DNA of 39,293 bases from a virus. Positions 774-25,109 of this stretch are shown in pieces (position 1 is the stretch's first letter; each line of letters starts with the position of its first letter). A program made the position numbers and the translations under genes. The notes beneath the pieces are model-generated. The model was given only the letters and a program-made list of their open reading frames with translations, was not told the DNA's origin and ran no database searches. The stretch is taken from positions 1 to 39,293 of the IMG/VR virus record IMGVR_UViG_3300042897_001737; one strand, written 5' to 3'.

Positions 774-1878
774 CACCTCGATCGAATGGACTGAGCACAC
801 TTGGAATCCGATTGTCGGCTGCTCGCTCGAATCCCCTGGCTGCACCAACTGCTACGCGATGAAGATGGCCGGCCGGCTGGAGGCCATGGGCGTCGAATAT
901 TACCAGGGGACGACGCAGAAGACGAAGGCCGGGTTCGTCTGGACCGGCAAGATCGCCGTGAACGAAAACGCCATGCTGGAACCCTGGAAGCGCAAGAAGC
1001 CCACGGTCTGGTTCGTCAACAGCATGTCGGACCTGTTCCATCCCGATGTCCCCGAGGCGGTGATCGATCGCGTTTTCGCGGTGATGGCGATGTGCCCACA
1101 GCACACGTTCCAGGTGCTGACCAAACGGCCATATCGAATGCAGCATTATCTTGCGCATGGGGGAACTGTTCGCCGGATCATGGAGAACCTCGCACAGCTG
1201 GTAAGGGATACTGCGCCAGACCCGGAGCGCTTCCACCGGGCATTTCATGCCCATCATGCCAAGTTTGCGACGATGCACGCATGGACTCATCTTGGGGGCA
1301 TCGCGTCGGACATGTTCCTGCGCAATGAGCCTAACCGATCGCACCCTTCTCGACTGCAATGGCCGCTGCCGAATGTATGGGCCGGCGCGTCGATCGAGGA
1401 CAACCAGCGCATGCACGAGCGCGCCAATGACCTGGCCGCCGTGCCAGCCGCCGTGCGATTCTGGAGCGCCGAGCCGCTACTCGGGCCAATAGCGAACGTG
1501 CCGAAGCACTGGTGGCCAGACTGGGTTATTTGCGGCGGTGAGAGCGGCGCACGCGCGCGGCCAATGCATCCAGACTGGGCGAGATCTCTGCGCGATCAGT
1601 GCGCCGATAATGGCGTGCCGTTCTTCTTCAAGCAGTGGGGCGACTGGGCGCCCCATGTGGCGGTCGGCAACGAGCATGGCGGGGTCGACATGGCACCCCC
1701 GGTGTCGTTCAAGGACGCCCATCGCTGGCGGCGCTGGGATCACGGCAGGAGCCGCGCGGCGCGCGCAGATGAATCGATCGGCGAGTTTCTGGCGCCGGGC
1801 ATCATCTCGATCCCGGTCGGCAAGAAGGCGGCTGGGCGACTCCTCGACGGTGTCCAGCATGACGGGGTGCCGGCATGA
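766..1878 (+). CDS. DUF5131 (phage Gp37/Gp68) three-Cys-motif protein
   Basis: The 370-residue protein has the hallmark N-terminus of PF07505: SIEWTEHTWNPIVGC, with Cys19, Cys26 and Cys29 giving a CX6CX2C cluster followed by YAMKMAGRLE. Family members are thought to be divergent radical-SAM-like proteins because of this cysteine motif; their reaction is not established. Other typical segments are present: NSMSDLFHPDVP, FQVLTKRP, WAGASIEDN and VICGGESG. An unusual-looking stretch of about 60 residues around positions 140-190 (HAHHAKFATMHAW) lies between LTKRP and the WAGAS segment. The start overlaps the preceding gene by 8 nt and its TGA overlaps the next ATG (ATGA). This puts it in strict co-translation with a DndC-like ATPase, which suggests both act on the same nucleic acid or nucleotide. 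Confidence 0.88.
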   Translation: MADTSIEWTEHTWNPIVGCSLESPGCTNCYAMKMAGRLEAMGVEYYQGTTQKTKAGFVWTGKIAVNENAMLEPWKRKKPTVWFVNSMSDLFHPDVPEAVIDRVFAVMAMCPQHTFQVLTKRPYRMQHYLAHGGTVRRIMENLAQLVRDTAPDPERFHRAFHAHHAKFATMHAWTHLGGIASDMFLRNEPNRSHPSRLQWPLPNVWAGASIEDNQRMHERANDLAAVPAAVRFWSAEPLLGPIANVPKHWWPDWVICGGESGARARPMHPDWARSLRDQCADNGVPFFFKQWGDWAPHVAVGNEHGGVDMAPPVSFKDAHRWRRWDHGRSRAARADESIGEFLAPGIISIPVGKKAAGRLLDGVQHDGVPA

Positions 1879-3080
1879 GCGCCGTCGACAACCTTTTCGC
1901 TGGCGGCGCTCGCATGGTGTCGGAAGAGGCGATCGAGCTGACACTGCAATCGCTGCGCGCCTATTGGGATCGTCACGAGCACGTCGCGATCGCATGGTCG
2001 GGCGGCAAGGACAGCACGGCAACCCTTACGCTGCTCATCCACCTTATCGAGGCCGGCGAGCTGCCCCGGCCGGCGAAGCTGTTCGTCTTCTATGCCGACA
2101 CCCGGCAGGAGCTGCCGCCTATCCAGATCGCCGCCGAACAGGTGATTGCGCTTCTCCGTCTGCGCGACTGGATCGAGGTCGTGGTCGTGCGCGCACCGCT
2201 CGATAAGCGCTTCATGGTCTACATTCTGGGCCGCGGCGTGCCGCCGCCGAACAACAACACCCTCCGGTGGTGCACCCGCCAGATCAAAGTTGACCCGATG
2301 GCAGAGGCGCTGGGCGCCGCGATCGCCGACATGCCGGGCACGGCACTGATGCTGACCGGCGTCCGCCAGGGCGAAAGTGCGGTCCGGGATGGCCGGATTG
2401 AAATGTCATGCTCCAAGGATGGGGCGGAATGCGGGCAGGGCTGGTATCAGCAGGCTTTGCCCGAAGCTAAGGGCGTGCGCGGCCGGATCGCGACGCTAGC
2501 GCCAATCCTGCACTGGCGGGTCTGCATTGTCTGGGACTGGCTCAAGGTCTATGCGCCCCAGGCGGAATTTGGTGGCTGGCCGGTGCGCATCCTTGCCGAC
2601 GCCTATGGCGGCGATGATGCTGAAGAGATCAACGCGCGCACTGGCTGCATCGCCTGTCCGCTCGCGGTGAAAGACACGGCGCTCGATTATCTCGTCGGCA
2701 CTGACGCCTGGGCGCATCTGGCGCCGCTCAAGGAACTGAAGCCGCTCTATCGCTGGATGCGCGAGCCGGCGCAGCGTCTGCGCAAAGCCGGAGCTGAGAC
2801 GCTGAAGGATGGCAGCCTCGCAAAGAACCCGCAGCGCATGGGGCCGTTAACGCTCGCCGCGCGCGAAGAGGCGCTGGAGAAGATCCTCGACATTCAGGCG
2901 CGGGCGCGTGTCGACCTCATCAATGATGAGGAAGAAGCGAGGATACGGGAACTGATCGCCGCTGGCACATTTCCTGACAAGTGGGACGGCAGCGAACCTA
3001 ACGCCGCCGCCTGGCTGGACCGGGTCAATCAGGATGGCTCGGTCGAGCCGATCCTCTTCCGCGACATGGTGGGCGCATGA
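1875..3080 (+). CDS. PAPS-reductase/DndC-like sulfur-transfer ATPase
   Basis: A 401-residue N-type ATP pyrophosphatase. The PP-loop is SGGKDST at residues 42-48, followed by a FYADT strand end near 72-76. Further on are RWCTRQIKVDP (Cys133), GVRQGESAVRD (about 162-172), MSCSKDGAEC (Cys179, Cys186) and RTGCIACPL (Cys258, Cys261). The RWCT-K-P, GVR-ES and GC-x2-C segments match DndC of DNA phosphorothioation more closely than simple PAPS reductases, and the cysteines could hold an Fe-S cluster. DndC activates sulfur for insertion into the DNA backbone; here no DndA, DndD or DndE is seen, so the substrate is open. Start and stop both overlap neighbours by four bases (ATGA). Confidence 0.85.
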   Translation: MSAVDNLFAGGARMVSEEAIELTLQSLRAYWDRHEHVAIAWSGGKDSTATLTLLIHLIEAGELPRPAKLFVFYADTRQELPPIQIAAEQVIALLRLRDWIEVVVVRAPLDKRFMVYILGRGVPPPNNNTLRWCTRQIKVDPMAEALGAAIADMPGTALMLTGVRQGESAVRDGRIEMSCSKDGAECGQGWYQQALPEAKGVRGRIATLAPILHWRVCIVWDWLKVYAPQAEFGGWPVRILADAYGGDDAEEINARTGCIACPLAVKDTALDYLVGTDAWAHLAPLKELKPLYRWMREPAQRLRKAGAETLKDGSLAKNPQRMGPLTLAAREEALEKILDIQARARVDLINDEEEARIRELIAAGTFPDKWDGSEPNAAAWLDRVNQDGSVEPILFRDMVGA

Positions 3081-3652
3081 GCGCACCATTCCCCACTGAC
3101 CTGTTCGGACACGAGACGATGCAGCGCAGCGCCGTCTTCAGCGGCGAAGAGCGCATCGAGCTTATCCGACGCTGGGGGGAGGGGCGGACCGCTTGTGTGA
3201 TCGGCTGCAACCCTTCGACCGCCGATGCTTGTAAGGATGATCCAACCACCCTTTGGTGGATAGACTGGTTCCAGCTGTTCGGATTCGGCGGCTTTCGCGC
3301 GGTCAATCTCTATCCCTTCTGCACCTCCAGTCCCGCCGAATGTCGGCAGCGCGCGAACTGGCATGTGCGTGACGACTGGTATGCGCGCGATCAGATGATC
3401 ATGACGAACCTGCCGCACGTCGCCCAGGTCGCGAAGGAAGCAGATCAGGTTTTCGTCTGCTGGGGCAACATCGCTTGGGACGACATGTGGATCGAGCATG
3501 TCGTCGAGGAGATCCAGAGCGGTGTCGAGCCCTGGCCCGACCTATGGTGCTGGGGCAAGACGAAGAGCGGCGCTCCGACCCATCCGATGGCACGGGGCAA
3601 GCATCGCATCCCGCGCGATCAGAAACCTATCCTTTGGAGGGCGGCCGCATGA
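3077..3652 (+). CDS. DUF1643 family protein
   Basis: The 191-residue protein carries the DUF1643 signature NPSTAD at residues 45-50, a following FRAVNLYPF strand (about 73-81) and a buried VFVCWG segment (about 124-129). The family is common in phages and mobile elements, and has no proven activity; the alternating alpha/beta pattern and the conserved Asn-Pro-Ser-Thr-Ala-Asp suggest a small enzyme. It overlaps both neighbours by ATGA junctions. Its fixed position between a DndC-like ATPase and a nuclease/helicase pair suggests it works with them, perhaps on nucleotides or on modified DNA; this is inference. Confidence 0.82.
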   Translation: MSAPFPTDLFGHETMQRSAVFSGEERIELIRRWGEGRTACVIGCNPSTADACKDDPTTLWWIDWFQLFGFGGFRAVNLYPFCTSSPAECRQRANWHVRDDWYARDQMIMTNLPHVAQVAKEADQVFVCWGNIAWDDMWIEHVVEEIQSGVEPWPDLWCWGKTKSGAPTHPMARGKHRIPRDQKPILWRAAA

Positions 3653-12197: not shown

Positions 12198-12473
12198 ATG
12201 AACGAACCAGCGAATGCATCTCGCTCGATAACGAAAGAAGTCTGCACCCTATTCTTCGTCGCGTGGGCGACCGGGGTCGCTGCTATGCTTGGGCGCGGAC
12301 AGTTGACTCCGATCGAGGGCCTTGGCTTCGGTATTCCTCTTTTTGCGTTGGGAACCGTCGTCCTATTTGCGCGGCGCTCGTCGGAATCTCGGCTTCGCTC
12401 GGCAGTGATCACTATCATTATCCTGGGGGCTCTAGCCGGCTACGGCCTGTATTACGGCGCTACTCGGACTTAG
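12198..12473 (+). CDS. three-span membrane protein, candidate moron
   Basis: The only plus-strand gene inside the minus-strand late block. It encodes 91 residues, MNEPANASRSITKEVC and onward, with three hydrophobic segments (about 17-33, 41-59 and 68-88). A good ribosome site GGAGAGGGAG lies eight bases before the ATG. A possible promoter is TTGCAT, 17 bases, TACCAG around 12149-12177, which is weak. It ends 14 bases inside the 3' end of the ejection-protein gene, head to head. Codons look less GC-biased than in the neighbours. Small membrane proteins encoded this way are often lysogenic-conversion or superinfection-exclusion factors; no family is recognised. Confidence 0.68.
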   Translation: MNEPANASRSITKEVCTLFFVAWATGVAAMLGRGQLTPIEGLGFGIPLFALGTVVLFARRSSESRLRSAVITIIILGALAGYGLYYGATRT

Positions 12474-15400
12474 CCTTCCCCTTCGTCAGCCCGCGATACC
12501 ATTCGGCCGCGGTTTCCGGATCCTGCTCGCCATTGGCGACGTCGACAAGGAACTGCGTGGACGTAGCGATCTGCCCCGGCACCAGCCCGGTCCAATAGCC
12601 CGCCACCTCCAGCGCGTTGCGCACCGGCCGCTTCGCGTCCTCGCCCTCGATCATCTTATGGACGTCGCGCGCTGATTCTACGAGCGACTGGAACGAGCGC
12701 TGGATCGGCGTGAACTGATAGTCGAACGGCTTGCCCCCGGTCAGACCCTCGACCAGCGGCGAGGCGACATCGCGGACGCCGGGGATCGGCCCGAGCGACT
12801 GGAACAACATCTGCTTGAACGCCCAAAAGCCCCAGTCCTCGTCATCGCCGGGACCGTTGCCGCCCAGAATCTGCGCCATGAGCGGCGGTACGACGATCAG
12901 CCACCAGGCGCGCGCCAGCACCGCCGGCACATCGCCGACCTTTCGGATGCCGGCGATATCGCGGCCCAGCGTGCGCTGGCGCTGATAGAAGGCGCTCATA
13001 TAGCTGTAGAACATCGTCATGAGCTTGAGCGCCTGGCCCCACTGGCCAGTGCCGCGCGCGATCGCCGCCAGATCCTTGGGCGAGCCGGAGCCCTGCGACA
13101 TGCGCACCGCCTTGTCGGCCGCATAGACCGACGCCTCTTCATCCATGCCGGCCGCCTGCGCCTTGTTATAGGCGCCGATCCATGTGGGCACGACAACCAT
13201 GCGGTCCATATAGCCGATGCCATGGAAGGCGAAGCGCTTGGCCGCGTCCAGCTTCTGGCCGCGCCCCTGCATCTGCTGGAGTGTCAGGCGGATGTCGCGA
13301 TCGAGCGTGTCCATGCGCGAGCGCACCTCGCCCGACTTCGCCATGACGGTGTTGAAGGTGTCGATCGGATGCGCGGTCGCCTGCGCAATGCCAGCCGTCA
13401 CCCACTTCGCGCCGACATATTCGAAGCTGTTGGAATAGCCCGCGAGCTGCGTCACCATCGTGGTGAAGCGAAAGCCCATGCCCACGACCGTCGCATTCGA
13501 CCGCAGCTTCTGCATGAAGGCACCCACGCCCTCATTGCCGGCCCGCTCCATCGCCCAGCTGTTGGCCACATATTTGAGCCAGGGGCGGAACTGCTTGCGG
13601 ATCTCGGGACCGAGCGTGTCGTCGATGGCGCGCATGACGCGCTCGGCGCGCAGGAACTTGTCCGCCTGGATGATCGCCTCGCGGTGGGTGATATCGTGGA
13701 TCACCTCGCCCAGGTGGCGATTGATGACACCCAGCTGCAGCAGGATCGGCCGCTTGACCTTCTCGCTGCGATCCTTGGTCGACGAGGCGCGCGTGCTCGC
13801 GCGAGTGTATCCCGCTTCCAGCAGGTCCGATCCCTTGCCTGCATGCTCCTCCGCCGCATAGCTTTTGGCGCTGTCGTAGATGGCCGGGTAATAGCCGCCG
13901 CGGAAGGTGCCGTGCGGGGTGACCACCTCCAGCGCCTCGACCTTGTCCGGCTCCACGCCATTGACGCGCCGCTCCATCGCCGCCGTTTGCGGCCAGAGCG
14001 TTTCGACGATGTCCCAGATATTCTGGACGAATTGCCAATCCTGCTCGGTCAGTTCACGGTTGAGCACTTCGCGCACTGACGTCTCGCGCCAGCCGTAGCC
14101 GTCGACCAGGCGCTGGATATTGCCCTCGTTACCCATGTTGAGCGCCATGGCGATCAACTGCTCGCGCTTCATTTGGTAGGGCTGGCCAGTGTCACGGTTG
14201 AACAGCGCCGGATCGGAGAATCGCTCCGACCAGCGGCGCAGCTGCTTGCGGTCGATCTTGGCGAATTCGGCGCGGACGCGGGCATGATAGTCCGCGACCA
14301 TGGCATTCTCGCGATCCTGCGCGTCGGCGAGCGGGCGGAAGACAATCCGGTTGAACACGCCGTTGCTGTTGCCAGCGTCGAGCCAGTCGAACACCTGCTC
14401 CATCTTCAGCAGGGAGGCGTCGAACGCCGCGATCTTGCCCTTGATGTTGTCCCACTGACTGGGCTCCATCAGGTCGGACGGCGGGCGCTGCTTCATCGCG
14501 GACAAGCCGGTCACCGCCTCCGACACGACCAGCTCGAAATCGGCATGCTCCCGGCCGTCCAGCAGCGTCTGCTTGAGCTTGCCAAGGTGAATGATCTGCT
14601 TCACTGCCTCATCGAGCCCGATCAGCTTCTCGACCGTCAGGCGCGACCAGTGCGTCTTGCCGAGCGATTCCGCGAAGGAAGGCGGCACGACGACGTCATA
14701 GCCCTCTGCCTGGCGCTGCGCCGCCCAGGCCTCGAAGCTCTCCTGTCGGTTCAGCGAGCGCTGGGTGCGCTCCTTCATCTCGACCTGTTCGAGCAGCAGC
14801 TGCGCGCGCTCCAGATAATCCTGATCGACCGACTTGACCGTGCGCCGCTTGGCCCATTTCTCCAGCCGGCCGACCGCTTCGTCCACCATGTCGGCGCCAC
14901 GCCGCGCGGCCGCGACCAGCGCATTGTTGAGCATCTGGCTCTGCTTCTGGCGGAACGCTTCGTCATGGTCGCCCGCGATCACGGCTTCCATCGCCGCCTT
15001 GCCCGCCTTCGCCGCGGCGCGCTCATAGCGGATGATGGCCGAACGGCTGGCAACTTCACGGACCTTGCCTTCCATCACCTGCCGCTCGGCCCAGCTTTTC
15101 GCCACGCTATAGGGGGTGACGCGCTGCCCGGTCATCCGGCCCAGCACGCGCAGTTCCGCGCCCATCACCTCACCCATGCGGTCCGACTGGACGGCGGCCA
15201 GCGCCTCTTCCTGGATACTGCCATCGGTGAACGGGTCGCCATAGCGCTCCAGCATGATCTGGCTGACTTCCTGGTCGATCATCGCCTTGCGCACCGACCG
15301 CTTGTCACCATTCTCCCGCATCTCGCGCCGGCGGACCTCGATGCCCATGAGCGTGCGGACCATGTCGTCGGCCGACAGGAAACCCGCTATCTCCGCGACG

Positions 15401-18400
15401 TCGTCGGGGCTGGCGCCGTTCTCGCGGTGGACCGGCGGCACTTGGCGCGGCAGCATGCCGGTCGCGTCCTCGCCGTAATTGTCGCGCACCCATTCGCTAT
15501 CCATGGGACTGACCTTGAGCAGCTGCAGCGCGCGGAACTCGGGCAGGGCATCGATGCGGGCGGTGACGGTGTCGCGCACATCCTCTTCGCGCTCGCGCCA
15601 TTCCTTCGTGACGCGGCGCTTCACCGCGTTCATCGTCTTGGCCAGCATGCGGTCCTGCGCCTCTTCGCGCGCGGTCGCGGTCAGGCCCTGATAGGCGGCA
15701 TATTCCGCCGCCGTCATCGATGGAGGCTTATCGGGGAAGAGTGCTTCGAGATTCTGCGCCGCGATCGCGTCGGCCATCTCCTCGTCCGAGGCGACCAGTC
15801 GGTCCATCACGCCGCGCACATCGTCGCTAATCTCGGAGCGCAGGCGTGAGACGCTGTTATAAAGCGAGATCATCCAGGCCTTGAAGGTCTGGAACATGCG
15901 CTGCATGCCGGGGGAGGGGGCCTTGCCCTCCATCAGGTAGCGTTCGACGCCGCGCGCCCAAAGCTCATGCGCATCGACCGGGATCTTGCCATTCTCGATC
16001 GGGTGACCGGCGGCGGCGAACCAGTCCTGCACGATCTGCCAGTCGTCGCGCACCTGCTGCGGCGCTTCCGGGTCGGCCGCGTCTTCGCGCAACTCCTCCA
16101 GCCACAGGTGGCCGGCCTCATGGAGAAAGGTGGACTGGTCCTGCGTCTGGAACAGCTCGATGATAGCGCTGGCGCTCTGGCCGCCGGGGAACAGGATGCG
16201 GCCGCGCGGGCTGTCCTCGCCCTGCATGAGCGCGTCGCCCTGCGCCTGTTCGGCGGCATAGGCTTCCACGGCGGCGCGGATATCTCGGCGGCTGGCCGCG
16301 TCCGGATCGATCCCGCGACTCTCCAGCAGCGCGCGCAGCTCATTGGCGGCATCGCGCACCGAGCGCTCGCGCGCGACCAGGTGGCGATCGCGACCGGCCA
16401 CACCTTCGGCGACCGCATCGATCAGGTCGTTGGCGCTGGGTCGCTCCGCCATCTCCGGGAAATAGCCCGCTTCCCACGCGCGGGCCGCCCAGGCGTCGGC
16501 GCTATACTCATTCTCCCCAAGGCCGCCCTCGTCGATCAGCTCGCCCTGATCCTTCACCAGCTTGCGCCGGCCGGGCTTCCCCCTGTGCCAGGCGTCGGCG
16601 CCCATGGCGCGCAGGTCGCCGCCAGTGTCGACGATGCCGCCGCCGCGCGCGATGAAGTCCATCAGCGACGGGCCCAGATTCTGCGAGGCGTCCTTCTGGC
16701 GCTTCATGACGTCGATCGCGACGTCGAGCTGGTCCGCCTTCTGGATGGCGGCGATGTTCTCCGGCAGTACCTGCCGCACCTGCAGCGCGTCATATTCGGT
16801 GCCGGTCAGCTCGCGCCCCATGCGGCTGGCGCGCGTTACGGCGCGCTGGGTCAGAAACTCGGCATTCTGCTGCGCCATCGATGGCGACATGCCGGCGGTG
16901 GTCAGCTTCTCGACGATCGACTGGAGCAGCTTTTCGCGTGGAGCGCCGAGCGCGCGGGCAGCGCGCTCCTCGTCGGCCATGCGGTCGGTCAGGTCCGCCA
17001 TGACATCGGCCATGGCCTCGTCGAAGGTCTGCGCCTCGCGACGCGACATGCCGCCAGCCGACAGGCGCATATCCTCCTTCAGCGCGTCCCATGCCGGCGT
17101 GCCAGCCAGTTCCGACACGGCCGTCTCGACCGGCAACACCCAGTCCCCGCCGGTAACGACCGCGTCGTCAATCTCGGAGCGCCAGCGGTCGAAGTCGCCG
17201 TCATAGGCATCGCTCTGCATGTAGGCCTGCACGGCCTCGGCGGGGATGTAGACATTGTCCGCGTCGGCATCGTCCGCCATCTCGCGCACCAGGTCGGCGA
17301 ACGCTACGGAGTCGCGCGCCTTCAGCTTCGACCCGGCAACAGCGTCTCCCATCTGATCGAGCGCAACTGCCTCACTCTGGGCCCGACGCGCGGCGATGAC
17401 GCGGTCAGCCATCTTGCCGGCAGCGCGCGCCGTGCGCTCGGTCGCCAGCGTGATACCGGCGGTCGCGCCAACGCCACCGACGGTAGCGACAAGAGTGGCC
17501 GCCGCCGCCTCCGGCCGTTCAGCCAGATATTCGCTGAAGGGCTTATCCGGGTTGAGTGCCGCCCACTCATTGAGATCCTGAAGGATAGTCGCGATCTGCT
17601 CGCCAGGGATCTCGGACTTGATCTGATTCCAGAAGGTTCGAAGGATCGGCGATTTGCCGGCCACATCGGAGACCAGATGCCCGATCGGCAGACGCTCTGT
17701 CGCCACTTCGATCAAGCCCTGAGACAGTGCGTAAACGCCGGCGCCCATGGTCGACAAGCCACTGGCTCGCGCCTTAACATATTCGCCGCCGCTGGTCGTG
17801 AGACCTGCCACGCTTGCGCCGGCGGTCGGCCCCGCCAGCAAGCCGACCCCGACCGACGCGAGCGAAGTAGGCACGCTTTCAATGCCCTGTAGCAGGTTGC
17901 GCGCCGTCCAGTTCTCGACCTCCGGGCGAGCGCCAGCGGCCATTTGCTGACCTTCGCGCGCGCGGCCGAGTGCAAAATCGGACACTATCTGCGGAATGGA
18001 GCGAACCCCGGCGCGTCGTTCACCCTCAGAACTGGGCGTGAGCAAACTGAGCGTGTCAGCCGCGCCGCCGATCGCCCCCCATATGCGGCTGGTCGCTTGG
18101 AATAAGCCGGCCTCCAACGATTTTCCGACATTGCGGATGCCATAGAAAGCTTTGCCTAAAAGGCTCAGACTGGAATAGTCGTCTGCGCCCGCCGCCATCC
18201 CGCGCGGGTTCTGTTCCGCCCACCGCGCGATCGCGCCATTATCCCGCTGCAGAGTCGCGGCGCGGTTTATTTGCGCCGTCCGATCGAGCGCTTGCAGATT
18301 TGCGTCCGCCTGGCTTGGCGTGACACCGAAGGTGCGCGCGAGGCCGTTCGCTTTCGCAGTTGCGTCGGGATCGGGCAGCTGGCGCAGCGCGGTCGTGCGG

Positions 18401-18480
18401 ATCTGGTGGAAATAGTCGTCGAGGGGGTCAGCGGCCGCGCCGCCTGCGCCTGGCGTCAGATAGTCGGGCTGTTCTTCCAT
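12460..18480 (-). CDS. giant internal virion/ejection protein with zincin motif
   Basis: A 2006-residue protein, in the place and size class of the large podovirus ejection protein (T7 gp16 position). The N-terminal third has membrane-like helices (SLASVGVGLLAGPTAG, LVATVGGVGATAGITLA). At residues 787-791 is HEAGH within STFLHEAGHLWLEEL, an HExxH zinc-metallopeptidase motif of the type found in large polyvalent proteins. The middle is long charged helix. The C-terminal part (AVRMSQGSGSPKDLAAIARG, MTMFYSYMSAFYQRQ, hydrophobic WWLIVVPPLMAQIL) is typical of large ejected proteins. The ATG directly abuts the stop of the gene before. It would be injected into the cell with the DNA and may form the trans-envelope channel and cleave host or virion proteins. 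Confidence 0.85.
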   Translation of the reverse strand: MEEQPDYLTPGAGGAAADPLDDYFHQIRTTALRQLPDPDATAKANGLARTFGVTPSQADANLQALDRTAQINRAATLQRDNGAIARWAEQNPRGMAAGADDYSSLSLLGKAFYGIRNVGKSLEAGLFQATSRIWGAIGGAADTLSLLTPSSEGERRAGVRSIPQIVSDFALGRAREGQQMAAGARPEVENWTARNLLQGIESVPTSLASVGVGLLAGPTAGASVAGLTTSGGEYVKARASGLSTMGAGVYALSQGLIEVATERLPIGHLVSDVAGKSPILRTFWNQIKSEIPGEQIATILQDLNEWAALNPDKPFSEYLAERPEAAAATLVATVGGVGATAGITLATERTARAAGKMADRVIAARRAQSEAVALDQMGDAVAGSKLKARDSVAFADLVREMADDADADNVYIPAEAVQAYMQSDAYDGDFDRWRSEIDDAVVTGGDWVLPVETAVSELAGTPAWDALKEDMRLSAGGMSRREAQTFDEAMADVMADLTDRMADEERAARALGAPREKLLQSIVEKLTTAGMSPSMAQQNAEFLTQRAVTRASRMGRELTGTEYDALQVRQVLPENIAAIQKADQLDVAIDVMKRQKDASQNLGPSLMDFIARGGGIVDTGGDLRAMGADAWHRGKPGRRKLVKDQGELIDEGGLGENEYSADAWAARAWEAGYFPEMAERPSANDLIDAVAEGVAGRDRHLVARERSVRDAANELRALLESRGIDPDAASRRDIRAAVEAYAAEQAQGDALMQGEDSPRGRILFPGGQSASAIIELFQTQDQSTFLHEAGHLWLEELREDAADPEAPQQVRDDWQIVQDWFAAAGHPIENGKIPVDAHELWARGVERYLMEGKAPSPGMQRMFQTFKAWMISLYNSVSRLRSEISDDVRGVMDRLVASDEEMADAIAAQNLEALFPDKPPSMTAAEYAAYQGLTATAREEAQDRMLAKTMNAVKRRVTKEWREREEDVRDTVTARIDALPEFRALQLLKVSPMDSEWVRDNYGEDATGMLPRQVPPVHRENGASPDDVAEIAGFLSADDMVRTLMGIEVRRREMRENGDKRSVRKAMIDQEVSQIMLERYGDPFTDGSIQEEALAAVQSDRMGEVMGAELRVLGRMTGQRVTPYSVAKSWAERQVMEGKVREVASRSAIIRYERAAAKAGKAAMEAVIAGDHDEAFRQKQSQMLNNALVAAARRGADMVDEAVGRLEKWAKRRTVKSVDQDYLERAQLLLEQVEMKERTQRSLNRQESFEAWAAQRQAEGYDVVVPPSFAESLGKTHWSRLTVEKLIGLDEAVKQIIHLGKLKQTLLDGREHADFELVVSEAVTGLSAMKQRPPSDLMEPSQWDNIKGKIAAFDASLLKMEQVFDWLDAGNSNGVFNRIVFRPLADAQDRENAMVADYHARVRAEFAKIDRKQLRRWSERFSDPALFNRDTGQPYQMKREQLIAMALNMGNEGNIQRLVDGYGWRETSVREVLNRELTEQDWQFVQNIWDIVETLWPQTAAMERRVNGVEPDKVEALEVVTPHGTFRGGYYPAIYDSAKSYAAEEHAGKGSDLLEAGYTRASTRASSTKDRSEKVKRPILLQLGVINRHLGEVIHDITHREAIIQADKFLRAERVMRAIDDTLGPEIRKQFRPWLKYVANSWAMERAGNEGVGAFMQKLRSNATVVGMGFRFTTMVTQLAGYSNSFEYVGAKWVTAGIAQATAHPIDTFNTVMAKSGEVRSRMDTLDRDIRLTLQQMQGRGQKLDAAKRFAFHGIGYMDRMVVVPTWIGAYNKAQAAGMDEEASVYAADKAVRMSQGSGSPKDLAAIARGTGQWGQALKLMTMFYSYMSAFYQRQRTLGRDIAGIRKVGDVPAVLARAWWLIVVPPLMAQILGGNGPGDDEDWGFWAFKQMLFQSLGPIPGVRDVASPLVEGLTGGKPFDYQFTPIQRSFQSLVESARDVHKMIEGEDAKRPVRNALEVAGYWTGLVPGQIATSTQFLVDVANGEQDPETAAEWYRGLTKGKAKSE

Positions 18481-21131: not shown

Positions 21132-21582
21132 GGTCAGGCATCCTGAAGGGCAGAAAGGCCACGCCGCCATGCACCTCGCGCTCATCGCCGATGGCAAAAC
21201 CCCAGCGTTTGAGTGTGCGGATCGCGCGGTCATTGTCGGCCGAGACCAGATTGATGAGGGTTGGCGTCGTCTGGCGCATAAGAGCGATCACGGCAGAGCC
21301 TTCGACAAGAAAGGAACGGCCCTGCTTGTAAGCCGCATCGGTGGCCAGGAACCATGGGAGGCCAACACCTTCTACCAGGTTCATGGCGACAAGCCCGAGC
21401 ATGGCGATCGGCGCGCCGTCGGCAAGCACGGTTAACGACCATAGCGATCTGCGCCTAGCGCTGCGCAGTGCCACCTTGGGCTCGTGTCCCATGGCGAGGC
21501 ACTCGATCCGATCGATGTCCCGCATGTCGCGGGCGAGGCGGCCTATATGGCTGGGAAGGGATGGAACCAGCTCAACGGACAC
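21124..21582 (-). CDS. GNAT-like protein, T7 gp13/DUF2833 type
   Basis: A 152-residue protein with a GNAT-fold pattern: LWSLTVLADGAPIAMLGLVA strand pair, a short PWFLATDAAYKQGR segment, a helix and then NLVSADNDRAIRTLKRWGF, the closing GNAT signature. Proteins of this kind stand at the gp13 position in T7-like tail modules and are needed for virion assembly; true acetyltransferase activity is doubtful since the acetyl-CoA loop is weak. The start is GTG at 21582 with GGAGG just upstream, overlapping the end of the tail protein gene by 11 bases. Confidence 0.78.
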   Translation of the reverse strand: MSVELVPSLPSHIGRLARDMRDIDRIECLAMGHEPKVALRSARRRSLWSLTVLADGAPIAMLGLVAMNLVEGVGLPWFLATDAAYKQGRSFLVEGSAVIALMRQTTPTLINLVSADNDRAIRTLKRWGFAIGDEREVHGGVAFLPFRMPDHV

Positions 21583-23365
21583 CCTTCGCCTCCAGATAGG
21601 CGGCGGTGACGCGCATGGGCAGGGGGTTCTCCTGACGGATCACGACGGTTGTCTCGAAGTCCGCCACCTGCTCCATCTGCACACGCACGACGCCGCTATA
21701 AAGGTTTGCTTGAATGCCGACCGGCTCGGTGTCGCGGGTGACGACATCCTCCTGCAGGTCGATGCGGCGGCCAGCCGTTACGCCCAGCGTGTCGACAATG
21801 CGCAGGTGTGCGCGGCCGGTAGTCTGCTTGGTGCCGGTCGATGCACCGCCGGCCGCCTCGAAGTTGAGGGGTAGCGTTTCGACGGTCGCGACCATGGGCA
21901 GCCCGATCGTCACCTGCATCGCCTGATCCGGTATCGTAACTCGTCCATTCTCCACCGTCAGGCCCTTGGCGACGAAACCATCCGCCAGCGCCCAGACCTC
22001 CTTGCCCTCCAGATGGTCGAGTCGGTCAAATACGGTGCGCGCGTCGTCTAGCGACCAGGAGACGGCGCAGTCGAGATAGCAGGCGGCGCGGAAGTCGGCC
22101 CATTTTGCCGAGGCAAGTTGCTCCAGATAATAGACATCCTCGCCGTCGATGAAGCGCTTCACGATCAGATAGACGCGATCCTCGCCATCTTCGGGAACCG
22201 AGCAGACCGAAGTCACCTCGCCGTCGATCTCCATTTCGGTCCAGCCCCAGACCTGCTGTTCGCGCTGCCATGTGAAGGCGAGGAGCTTGCCGTCATCGCG
22301 CACCGCCCAGATGACGGAGAGCGGCTCTTCCGCATAACACCAGTCGATGATCCGGTGTCCGGTGAAGAAGTCCGGCGAAAACACGGACACGTCGTTCGAC
22401 TGGAATCCGTCGATATCGAAGCTGTAGCCCAGCGTCCGTATCTCGGCGCCGATCGCCGGCTGGAAAAAGGTCACGTTGTCGATCAGCAGCGCCTTGAGGG
22501 TGGACGCGCCGCGACCATTCTGCCGCACGACCTTGGGCGGCGGAGAGGGCGAGAGATAGTCATCGTTCGCGCCCTTCACCTGGAAGATGCTATCCGATGT
22601 CAGCGCCAGCAAACTCTGCGCGGGGATCAGCTGGTTGATCGCGTTCACTTTGCCCGAAGAGCAGGCAATCGAGAGGCTATCGTCGGCCTTGAGCGGCCGC
22701 GCCTTGTCCATGTTCTCGAAGTCGGACGATCGAGAGCCATAGATGGCATTGGGCGCGTTCTTGGTCTTTCCCACGAACAGGCGCTGCTCGAAAAAGGTCA
22801 CCGACCCGGGATAGTTGCCGACGCCATCAAATGGATTCCAGCCGACGACGGGCGCATCGGACAGGTCCGCATTGATATTGTCATCGCGGAACGTCAGCGC
22901 CGACGTCTCGCCGACGAACCCGAACGAGGCCCCGTTGTCGCTTTTGTAGACGCGGTAGAATGTAGCGCCCGTGACGCTGCCCCATACGATCTGGTTATAG
23001 TTGCGCTTGAGCCCAAGATCATTGGTAACCGTCACCGCCGCCGATGCGCGGCTCTCCTGTCCGGTCAGATCGTTGACGGCGCTAACCTTGTAGGACGCCG
23101 CCTGCGGGAAGTATGCCGCACCGCTATTGGGGGCGTCCGTGTTTGGGGTGATGGCGCTGGCGTCGATCGTCGCCGGCGCCGCAAGGGTCGGCCCGAACAA
23201 GACGGGATTGAAGGCCCAGCTATAATGGCTGGCGCGCGTCAGCTTCGTGATCGGGTGATCCTGATGCACAATGTACATGGTGTCGAACGACTGGGCATAG
23301 TCGACGTCCGGCAGCTCGACTGCATTGTAAGGCGTGCCAGCACGATAGAGACGATATCCACCCAT
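21572..23365 (-). CDS. tail tubular protein B, C-terminal part of a split protein
   Basis: The 597-residue product starts MGGYRLYRAGTPYNAVEL and continues with DYAQSFDTMYIVHQDHPIT, a hallmark segment normally found well inside podovirus tail (nozzle) proteins after an N-terminal barrel. Later segments fit that family: NPFDGVGNYPGSVTFFEQRL, YGSRSSDFENM, NAINQLIPAQSLLALTSD, WAVRDDGKLLAFTWQREQ. The missing N-terminal part is encoded by the gene just upstream, which ends with a Hint domain; the two genes share TAATG (23363-23367). The protein forms the tail tip through which DNA exits. Its start could be extended upstream by 47 codons in this frame, but that would run through the Hint coding sequence out of frame. 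Confidence 0.83.
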   Translation of the reverse strand: MGGYRLYRAGTPYNAVELPDVDYAQSFDTMYIVHQDHPITKLTRASHYSWAFNPVLFGPTLAAPATIDASAITPNTDAPNSGAAYFPQAASYKVSAVNDLTGQESRASAAVTVTNDLGLKRNYNQIVWGSVTGATFYRVYKSDNGASFGFVGETSALTFRDDNINADLSDAPVVGWNPFDGVGNYPGSVTFFEQRLFVGKTKNAPNAIYGSRSSDFENMDKARPLKADDSLSIACSSGKVNAINQLIPAQSLLALTSDSIFQVKGANDDYLSPSPPPKVVRQNGRGASTLKALLIDNVTFFQPAIGAEIRTLGYSFDIDGFQSNDVSVFSPDFFTGHRIIDWCYAEEPLSVIWAVRDDGKLLAFTWQREQQVWGWTEMEIDGEVTSVCSVPEDGEDRVYLIVKRFIDGEDVYYLEQLASAKWADFRAACYLDCAVSWSLDDARTVFDRLDHLEGKEVWALADGFVAKGLTVENGRVTIPDQAMQVTIGLPMVATVETLPLNFEAAGGASTGTKQTTGRAHLRIVDTLGVTAGRRIDLQEDVVTRDTEPVGIQANLYSGVVRVQMEQVADFETTVVIRQENPLPMRVTAAYLEAKGVR

Positions 23366-24333
23366 TACGGAATGTTCGGCTTGATGTTGTGGCTCAGCAG
23401 GCCGTTGGAAATATATGTGCGCGCGCGCTCCACAGTCAGGAGAACAACCCGATCGCGTCCATCCTGCACACCGAAAGCGGAAAGCACGCGCCAGTCGCCT
23501 TGCCACCAGACACGGTGATATGCCGTTCCCCGAAGCTTCCGGCCGCCGAAGTCGGCGAGCCAGACATCTGCCTCGACCGTTTCGACCGCCGCAACGCGGA
23601 ACGACCCAAGCACCATCGTCTCTTCATGGCGAGTGCGCACCACATCGCCGACCGCAATATCGCCGGCAGGCTTCTGCGAACCGTCAGCCATGAGGACGGG
23701 CGTATCGACAGTGACGCAATAGCTCCCGCCGCCGCCAGTTGCGGGGGGCGGAGGAGGCGTAACCGGGGGCGGCACAGGCGGGTCGGGGGGCGGGGCCTCA
23801 GGATCTTCGGTCCGCAGCGTTCCGCCACCGGAGCCGGTGAAAACGCCGTAGCTGGTCGTGTCCAGATCGATGGTGAAGTTGTGCTCGTCCACGATCGACA
23901 GGATCGACACGACCCGCTCATTGATCTGCACCATGCCTTCGACATCACGCGCGATGAATTGATCACCGACATTGTAGGCGTGGAAGGGGATCGTCACCTG
24001 CGCAGGATTGGCGTTGGTGATGGCGGTAATTTGCAGATGCTCCTCCAGCACCATACCGCCAAAAGCCGCCGGCCGCATCGCGCCCTGGGTGAAGGCAAGC
24101 GCATAGGGCTGGTCGAGCGAGAAGGTGAAGGGGAACAGGCGGCCAGGCCCGGGCAGCTTGTAGACGAACCGCGTGCCCTGTCTGTTCTGAAAGCCGCCGC
24201 GCTTCACCAGCACGATATTCACGCCCTGCTTCAGCCCGGCGCTGTAGGATGCGATATCGACGCGGGCGTGCAGATCCTTGGACAGTACGCCCTTGGAGAA
24301 ATTGACCTGCCCGAGGTTGACGCCAGCGCCCAT
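23365..24333 (-). CDS. tail tubular protein B N-terminal part fused to Hint (intein-like) domain
   Basis: A 322-residue protein in three parts. Residues 1-176 are the N-terminal tail region (GVLSKDLHARVDIASYSAG, RLFPFTFSLDQPYAL, GVFTGSGGGTLRTED). Residues 178-204 are a proline/glycine-rich linker. Residues 206-316 form a Hint domain: Cys206 with CVTVDTPVLMADGSQKPAG and IAVGDVV (block A), Thr270-x2-His273 (block B), LTVERARTYISNG (block F) and His315-Asn316 (block G). Six residues, IKPNIP, follow before TAA. Ile at the +1 place cannot support ordinary splicing, so cleavage as in bacterial intein-like domains is more likely. The rest of the tail protein restarts at an overlapping TAATG. The start also overlaps the upstream stop by TAATG. 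Confidence 0.85.
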   Translation of the reverse strand: MGAGVNLGQVNFSKGVLSKDLHARVDIASYSAGLKQGVNIVLVKRGGFQNRQGTRFVYKLPGPGRLFPFTFSLDQPYALAFTQGAMRPAAFGGMVLEEHLQITAITNANPAQVTIPFHAYNVGDQFIARDVEGMVQINERVVSILSIVDEHNFTIDLDTTSYGVFTGSGGGTLRTEDPEAPPPDPPVPPPVTPPPPPATGGGGSYCVTVDTPVLMADGSQKPAGDIAVGDVVRTRHEETMVLGSFRVAAVETVEADVWLADFGGRKLRGTAYHRVWWQGDWRVLSAFGVQDGRDRVVLLTVERARTYISNGLLSHNIKPNIP

Positions 24334-25010
24334 TAGCGGAACAGGCCATGGGTATCGAGCGTGCCGATTCCGACGCCACGCGCCCGAGCCCGCTCGCTCA
24401 CGAAATCATCGTCATAGTCCGGGGTGCGGTTCGCCTCGTCCGCGATCGCGCGCTGGCGCTGAATCTCCGCCATCTGCATCAGTGACCGCTGCCGGGTGGC
24501 ATCATTGAGGATCGGCATAACCAGGCGGGAGGCCAACTCCAGCACGACCAGCCGCGCGAATGAGGAGGTGAAGGACGAGACCTGCACTTCGTCCGGCAGA
24601 TATTCGAGGATCGCGTCAGGCAGGTTGGTGTAGAGGGCCTGGCCGGCAATTTGATATTCGACCATCGCGGCCAGCTGATTGGCGACGCCGACGGTGCCGG
24701 CGAAGCCGATGAGGTTGCCAGCAGAGGACGCGGTACCGGCCGGCAGGATTCGCAGCGGCGTGCCGATCCCAGCGGGCAGGGCATAGGCAAATGCCCATTC
24801 GCCCGGCCGGGTGTTGCCGATGACGGCCATGGCGACGCGAACCTTACCGAAGCCCCAGTCGTAAGCTTCGAGCAGATCGGAAATGACGCCGCGATAGAGC
24901 CGCTTGCAATGGCGGGCGCTTTGCTTCGTCTCGTCGTTGAGATCGGAGATAGTCTCCGCCGGCAGTTCGCCGAGCGCTTCATTGCAGATGTCGAGGATCG
25001 ATCGCGCCAT
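24333..25010 (-). CDS. tail tubular protein A-like (head-tail adaptor)
   Basis: The 225-residue protein MARSILDICNEALGELPAET and onward fits podovirus tail tubular protein A: helical start with NEALGELP, DETKQSARHCKRLY, LLEAYDWGFGKVR, and YLPDEVQVSSFTSSFARLVV plus a helical C-terminus. It makes the ring under the portal. The ATG at 25010 fits the family start; it lacks a Shine-Dalgarno and is preceded exactly by a 54-nt element also found before the gene at 29880-30074. An in-frame TTG at 25076 would lengthen it by 22 residues, but lies in the T-tract of the terminator upstream. Placing the gene first after a terminator implies a promoter or antitermination in the gap. Confidence 0.82.
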   Translation of the reverse strand: MARSILDICNEALGELPAETISDLNDETKQSARHCKRLYRGVISDLLEAYDWGFGKVRVAMAVIGNTRPGEWAFAYALPAGIGTPLRILPAGTASSAGNLIGFAGTVGVANQLAAMVEYQIAGQALYTNLPDAILEYLPDEVQVSSFTSSFARLVVLELASRLVMPILNDATRQRSLMQMAEIQRQRAIADEANRTPDYDDDFVSERARARGVGIGTLDTHGLFR

Positions 25011-25064
25011 GCCAGTGGCATACGACCGGAGGCGAGGGGGCTGAATGCACTGGTGGTAGAAGTC
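25011..25064 (-). repeat. 54-nt leader-like element, copy 1
   Basis: On the minus strand this element runs to the base before the ATG of the tail tubular A gene. By hand count it matches copy 2 (30076-30129) at 34 of 54 positions without gaps, with the first 15 bases (GACTTCTACCACCAG) identical, CATTC shared soon after, and CGTAT then GGC near the end. It may be a promoter/leader element or a leftover of a duplicated gene boundary. Read in one frame both copies share DFYHQ-x-I, Arg, Tyr and Gly, so an overlapping coding origin is also possible. Confidence 0.5.
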
Positions 25065-25074
25065 TCCCGCCGAC

Positions 25075-25109
25075 AAAAAGGGCGGCCCGCTTCTGACGGA
25101 CCGCCCTTT
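25075..25109 (-). terminator. Rho-independent terminator after capsid genes
   Basis: An inverted repeat pairs AAAGGGCGG (25077-25085) with CCGCCCTTT (25101-25109), with three further pairs (CCG/CGG) after one mismatch and a seven-base loop. Read on the minus strand the stem is followed by TTTTTG, which gives the U-tract. It lies after the coiled-coil protein stop (25131) and before the tail genes, like the terminator behind the T7 capsid gene. It would set the ratio of head to tail transcripts. Confidence 0.8.

Follow-up and report, generated by a model that had tools for sequence, protein, structure and literature searches.

A BIL-type Hint domain as a predicted, exchangeable autoprocessing module at the C-terminus of a separately encoded podophage nozzle part

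Our study identified an intein-like Hint domain at the end of the first half of a podophage tail nozzle protein that is encoded in two pieces, in a virus record of 39,293 nucleotides (IMG/VR IMGVR_UViG_3300042897_001737; this whole stretch is hereafter called the window). We propose, with a probability of roughly 0.6, that this domain is exchangeable and works as an autoprocessing module of the A-type bacterial-intein-like (BIL) kind, attached through a Pro/Gly linker to the C-terminus of the separately encoded N-part of the nozzle. The proposal is based on the fold of the domain, its invariant catalytic residues, the purifying selection acting on it, its terminal position, its exchange between proteins, and the existence of the same gene split without it. 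In the literature that we consulted, mostly open-access papers, inteins are described in phage terminase, reductase and helicase, and terminal Hints on tail proteins were not found. The occurrence of a BIL-type domain as a C-terminal module that is exchanged among tail proteins, in podophage nozzles, in siphophage J-like proteins and in sphingomonad prophages, suggests that tails of phages make use of self-processing chemistry. If the domain is active, no protease would be needed to cut or conjugate the tail proteins of the virion, and the natural role of BIL domains would gain a compact test case. In addition, these results document a nozzle protein that functions in two separate chains, and the same split is found in relatives that lack the Hint.

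The nozzle protein is encoded by two overlapping genes

The window carries podophage structural genes on its minus strand, namely those for terminase, portal/head-tail connector, a GP7-like capsid protein, a phrog_394 tail protein, the nozzle, internal virion proteins and a transglycosylase. The nozzle is represented by two minus-strand open reading frames: the Hint-bearing N-part, of 322 aa (23365..24333), and the C-part, of 597 aa (21572..23365), whose N-terminus reads MGGYRLYRAGTPY. Residues 6-108 of the N-part match positions 5-102 of the phrog_376 'tail protein' profile, and residues 6-593 of the C-part match positions 103-706 (E 8e-142); because these are consecutive pieces, which jointly cover the whole tail nozzle profile, the two parts constitute one nozzle/tail protein. 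Both halves are also clear relatives of other podophage nozzles, including the solved tail nozzle in PDB 8ck1 (residues 14-105 of the N-part, E 8.4e-8; C-part, E 2.2e-65) and Bbp13 of BPP-1. The solved nozzles and most of the sequenced ones are a single chain, whereas here there are two chains, with a Pro/Gly tail and a Hint. A megablast search of the region against phages returned no match.

Three elements of the N-part lie between the stretches that correspond to phrog_376 positions 102 and 103, all on the minus strand. The first is an FCCH-like beta-barrel (approximately aa 97-174, 23812..24045), which many unsplit relatives carry at the equivalent position and which is in frame in the fused ones. 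It is matched by Pfam E1_FCCH at residues 118-169 (E 3.6e-5, under the gathering score), and its model (residues 97-171) matches UBA6 with a Z of 11.3, a likeness to ubiquitin-activating enzyme that consists of a shared small fold only. The second is a linker (aa 175-205, 23719..23811), Pro-rich and then Gly-rich, that ends in GGGGSY; a Pro-rich tail after the barrel is present in 20 of the 21 split loci of our first set of relatives (see below), with or without a Hint, and in the remaining locus, L028, this stretch falls off the contig. The third is the Hint itself (aa 206-316, 23386..23718), in which the catalytic positions are Cys206 (23716-23718), His273 (23515-23517) and His315-Asn316 (23386-23391). 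After it, only the short C-terminal flank IKPNIP, with a Lys at +2 (23368..23385), precedes the stop codon.

The second half of the nozzle restarts at a TAATG stop/start overlap (23363..23367, minus strand), as the first-pass annotation of this sequence had stated. The N-part itself begins likewise: the stop codon of the upstream tail protein gene (phrog_394; 24333..25076, minus strand) overlaps its ATG as TAATG. Therefore, this overlap is an ordinary operon style and is not special to the break. In the AlphaFold model of the N-part, the FCCH barrel and the Hint are confident (pLDDT about 85-97 over most of the Hint), and residues 1-100 are of low confidence when modeled without the second half; the C-part alone is modeled poorly (mean pLDDT 57).

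The terminal domain is a Hint of the BIL type

The structural comparison agrees with the earlier reading of the N-part as ending in an intein-like Hint. Its best match is BIL2 of T. thermophila (6y75; Foldseek E 6.8e-8, VIA Z 13.9, 22% identity), and further matches include DnaB inteins and many other inteins, the C. thermocellum BIL (Z 12.7) and hedgehog (Z 11.5). Sequence profiles match the window Hint weakly (Hom_end_hint 0.0023, Vint 0.051; Pfam matches are under their gathering scores), and members of its family match Pfam Intein_splicing and the NCBIfam intein N- and C-terminal models. The PT-HINT profile was matched by 3 of 27 family members, and the toxin domain expected of a PT-HINT was not found downstream of the Hint in the N-part reading frame.

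It has been reported that A-type BILs have a terminal His-Asn but no +1 nucleophile, and that they mostly cleave, with aminolytic ligation being possible (PMC4031507; PMC7765530). The window Hint has in common with them, the C. thermocellum BIL (PDB 2lwy) being an example, the Hint fold, Cys1, the block-B TxxH (T270-A-Y-H273), the terminal His-Asn, and a +1 residue, Ile317, that is not C, S or T. These residues, the length of 111 and the six residues left after Asn316 are all as originally annotated. A-type BILs are located in variable parts of non-conserved proteins and have flanks on both sides; here, the C-terminal region is variable as well, but the C-flank is just six residues long (2-14 in the family), the hosts are phage tail parts, and the domain is known from sequence and models. 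The nearest solved structure, BIL2, belongs to the BUBL1 polyubiquitin locus of Tetrahymena (PDB 6y75, 6tmm), a eukaryotic context with a long C-flank. BIL2 conjugates its upstream domain to a lysine (PMC8616854), and we take this likeness as a precedent only.

Comparison with other Hint systems delimits the case further. Split inteins and fractured genes also place an intein-type domain at a phage gene break, but here the complete Hint belongs to the first chain, and nozzle sequence stands at the very start of the C-part; since the second half has no C-intein piece, this is not a split intein. A class 1 intein needs C, S or T at +1 and a C-extein, whereas the window Hint has Ile at +1 and a stop after six residues, so that normal cis splicing to the second half is impossible, in agreement with the first-pass annotation. 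Hedgehog Hog shares the Hint fold and the C-terminal position; here, however, the His-Asn is conserved and there is no sterol or adduct recognition region, as the reading frame stops six residues past Asn316.

The Hint is an exchangeable terminal module of tail proteins

The same Hint occurs at the C-terminus of unsplit J-like proteins (phrog_5616, phrog_1101 and phrog_31) of sphingomonad and other siphophages, and also on a lambda gpI-like protein and on long fibre-like proteins, mostly after Gly/Pro-rich linkers. Among the sphingomonad prophages, the one at L129 of G060 has the Hint on its nozzle, and those at L125 and L126 have it on J-type proteins. Between the window and its sister locus L014, the C-part is 69% identical and the N-domain 61%, whereas the Hint is just 34% identical. 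The window Hint scores best against J-type Hints of siphophages (58% with L097), and the Hint of L014 carries an insertion (MAN..TGPG) that is common to the J-like proteins of L114, L116 and L118 and to the nozzle of L120. A single clade of nozzle Hints was rejected (p-AU 0.004); a clade of the window and L014 Hints was only marginally rejected (p-AU 0.042), in a Hint tree that is otherwise weak at depth. The simplest reading of these comparisons would be that tail genes from different phages have recombined and that the Hint has been replaced in this way, and fast divergence of the Hint is the alternative.

In L172 (and also in L173 and L174), one phage encodes two tail proteins with terminal Hints (370-1428 and 3921-6056 of L172): a lambda gpI-like protein just before the J-like gene, and a Gly-linked protein after that gene. 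The 920-aa protein of L110 (3264-6026) has two tandem internal Hints, unlike the terminal pattern.

Conservation suggests that the Hint is catalytically intact

We conclude that the Hint is in all probability intact and not decayed, because its catalytic residues are invariant and it is under purifying selection. Cys1, the block-B His and the terminal His-Asn are the same in 29 of 29 aligned Hints, in which the mean column identity is 57%; the first-pass annotation had proposed to follow the Cys and the Asn across relatives, and both are invariant. It should be considered that SHN was part of some of the Hint search patterns, so that conservation there is partly selected for. Four Hints were obtained without any Hint pattern, those of L014, L019 and L028, collected via the C-half of the nozzle, and that of the window, and all of them keep the four catalytic residues. 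The pairwise dN/dS of the Hint is 0.12-0.33 in 13 of 14 pairs and 0.57 in the other, with several dS values near saturation.

The residues that follow the His-Asn are also characteristic. In 65 non-terminase Hints with a readable His-Asn, drawn from 71 distinct Hints, the +1 residue is I (49), K (10), V (3), N (2) or L (1), and C, S or T was found in none. The reading frame ends 2-14 residues past the His-Asn in 60 of the 64 distinct non-terminase Hints in closed reading frames, and a Lys stands one or two residues past it in 62 of 65, a regularity that is partly imposed by the search patterns. The terminase inteins from the same searches have C or T at +1 and long C-exteins; the terminase large subunits with apparent true inteins are those of L004, L005, L007, L010 and L115 (Cys or Thr at +1 where readable).

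From these features we infer that the Hint reacts, which nucleophile serves, and that the reaction takes place on the assembling tail. Cys206 would attack the carbonyl of Tyr205, and the resulting N-S acyl shift, helped by the block-B His273, would produce a thioester; Asn316 would cyclise with the help of His315, and the IKPNIP peptide would be cut off. The thioester would be resolved by water or by an amine, which might be that of the IKPNIP peptide after its release, of a Lys (Lys318, for example) or of another protein. Once the Hint has been removed, the expected product is a tail N-part that ends in ...GGGGSY and is either free or linked to a short peptide or some other partner; the nozzle halves, made separately from overlapping genes, would assemble without the Hint. 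The earlier suggestions that the domain cleaves the N-terminal half free or cross-links it to a partner belong to this class of explanation, which we consider the best, as a predicted activity. Two points stand against our reading: N-terminal cleavage alone would not need a conserved Asn, and if splicing mattered, a six-residue C-flank would make an odd product.

By analogy with BIL2, which acts in this way for ubiquitin-like domains, the Hint might even be an acyl-transfer device of the tail, which would turn the end of the nozzle or J-protein into a thioester and pass it on to an amine of another virion protein or of the host surface. The Lys that almost always stands one or two residues past the His-Asn would then be part of the chemistry; we regard this version as rather unlikely. 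We also judge it unlikely that the Hint stays on the protein uncleaved and faces outward for binding or decoration, its catalytic residues persisting for reasons of structure. The terminal position on long linkers, the module exchange and the variable sequence would suit a display or receptor domain, as would the short Gly-rich or other peptides that relatives have in place of the C-terminal tail, but the full conservation of Cys1, the block-B His and the His-Asn amid a diverging domain is the pattern of catalysis.

The gene break occurs with and without the Hint

A scan for relatives of the C-part, together with the Hint scans, yielded 87 loci in which the start of the C-part is readable. The gene is fused in 66 of them (about 27-40% identical to the window) and split in the other 21, all of which are at least 42% identical to it. 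In the fused loci, the N-part lies in frame about 100 residues upstream when the FCCH barrel is absent and about 180 when it is present; the alignment with unsplit homologues, which the first-pass annotation had put forward as a way to locate an intein insertion, thus revealed an insert at the site in 0 of 66. The stop and start codons overlap by 1 base (TRATG) or 4 bases (ATGA) in all 21 split loci, of which 8 have a Hint; the 13 that lack it terminate in short tails, Gly-rich or of another kind. Ten more split loci, all with a Hint, came from an additional Hint-based scan and from one prophage in a bacterial chromosome. As a result, 31 loci are split at the same FCCH/core junction, 30 of them with an overlap of 1 or 4 bases; the Hint is present in 18 and absent in 13, a proportion that overstates its frequency, as most of the Hint-bearing split loci were found through the Hint.

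In the phylogenetic tree, the split loci form a single branch (support 98/94), and it takes 4 changes to account for the distribution of the Hint, of which well-supported branches force at least 3 (5 and 4, respectively, in a smaller set). The deep branches and the root of this tree are weak, the changes are counted without direction (gain or loss), and the deepest split branch, the Hint-free L016, is long and incomplete. On this phylogenetic evidence, the split appears to have a single origin, and the presence of the Hint to have changed at least 3-4 times. Because the split had one origin with several Hint changes, and 13 split relatives have no Hint, the present-day break is not explained by the Hint. 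The causal link between the two that the first-pass annotation had implied is not supported, given these 13 relatives, which are of the very kind that it had named as counter-evidence; the break is a natural domain boundary, between FCCH and core. An ancestral Hint may have caused the split long ago and later been lost several times.

One locus separates the two halves altogether. In L165, an MntP-type manganese efflux gene (2290-3195, opposite strand; PF02659, E 1.5e-47) lies as a cargo insertion exactly at the break between the Hint-bearing N-part and the C-part, and therefore the nozzle halves need not be coupled. No RNA was found by Rfam at gathering thresholds in the window or in L165.

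These data also bear on a possible ligation in trans, in which the alpha-amine of the C-part (Gly after Met removal) would attack the thioester of the N-part and join ...GGGGSY to GGYRLY... in one nozzle chain. Ligation by aminolysis with a free N-terminus is within the reach of A-type BILs (PMC4031507), in the solved nozzle 8ck1 a single chain runs through the site, and all the split C-parts begin with Met and a small residue (G, S, A or P), which Met aminopeptidase would expose. We consider this outcome very unlikely, since the same start is found equally in the 13 Hint-free loci, which must work unligated, no evident second half is encoded downstream of the J-like Hint proteins, and the halves of L165 are separated by the MntP gene.

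Another proposal of the first-pass annotation was a decayed intein. Under this model, the nozzle gene was once invaded by an intein that became unable to splice, and the gene was left in two pieces, the first of them carrying a dead Hint; for the present domain this is mostly refuted, and we give it very little credence. The Hint does lie exactly at the break, the two occur together in 18 of the 31 split loci, and inteins exist in the terminases of phages from the same searches, listed above. Against this, the single split origin contrasts with the repeated Hint changes and the 13 Hint-free split relatives, none of the unsplit relatives has an insert, the catalytic residues are invariant, selection on the domain is purifying, the same Hint ends unsplit J-like proteins, and the break falls at a domain boundary. 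Finally, a sequencing error or assembly frameshift, for which only the origin of the window from a single contig would speak, is refuted, as the same split recurs, with clean overlaps of 1 or 4 bases, in 21 contigs as well as in one bacterial genome (G060, L129).

Pseudomonas phage UFJF_PfDIW6, annotated with two 'tail tubular B' genes (L134, 1101-1600), was considered as an independent split and rejected: its reading frames repeat the same stretch, for which a frameshift, a duplication or a sequencing artefact is likely, and it has no Hint. Elsewhere in the window, a phosphoadenosine phosphosulfate reductase family protein is encoded on the plus strand (1875-3080; phrog_12882, E 6.7e-220), and a 2006-aa protein with an LPD22 domain (12460-18480, minus strand; phrog_9880) is encoded immediately behind the gene for the transglycosylase.
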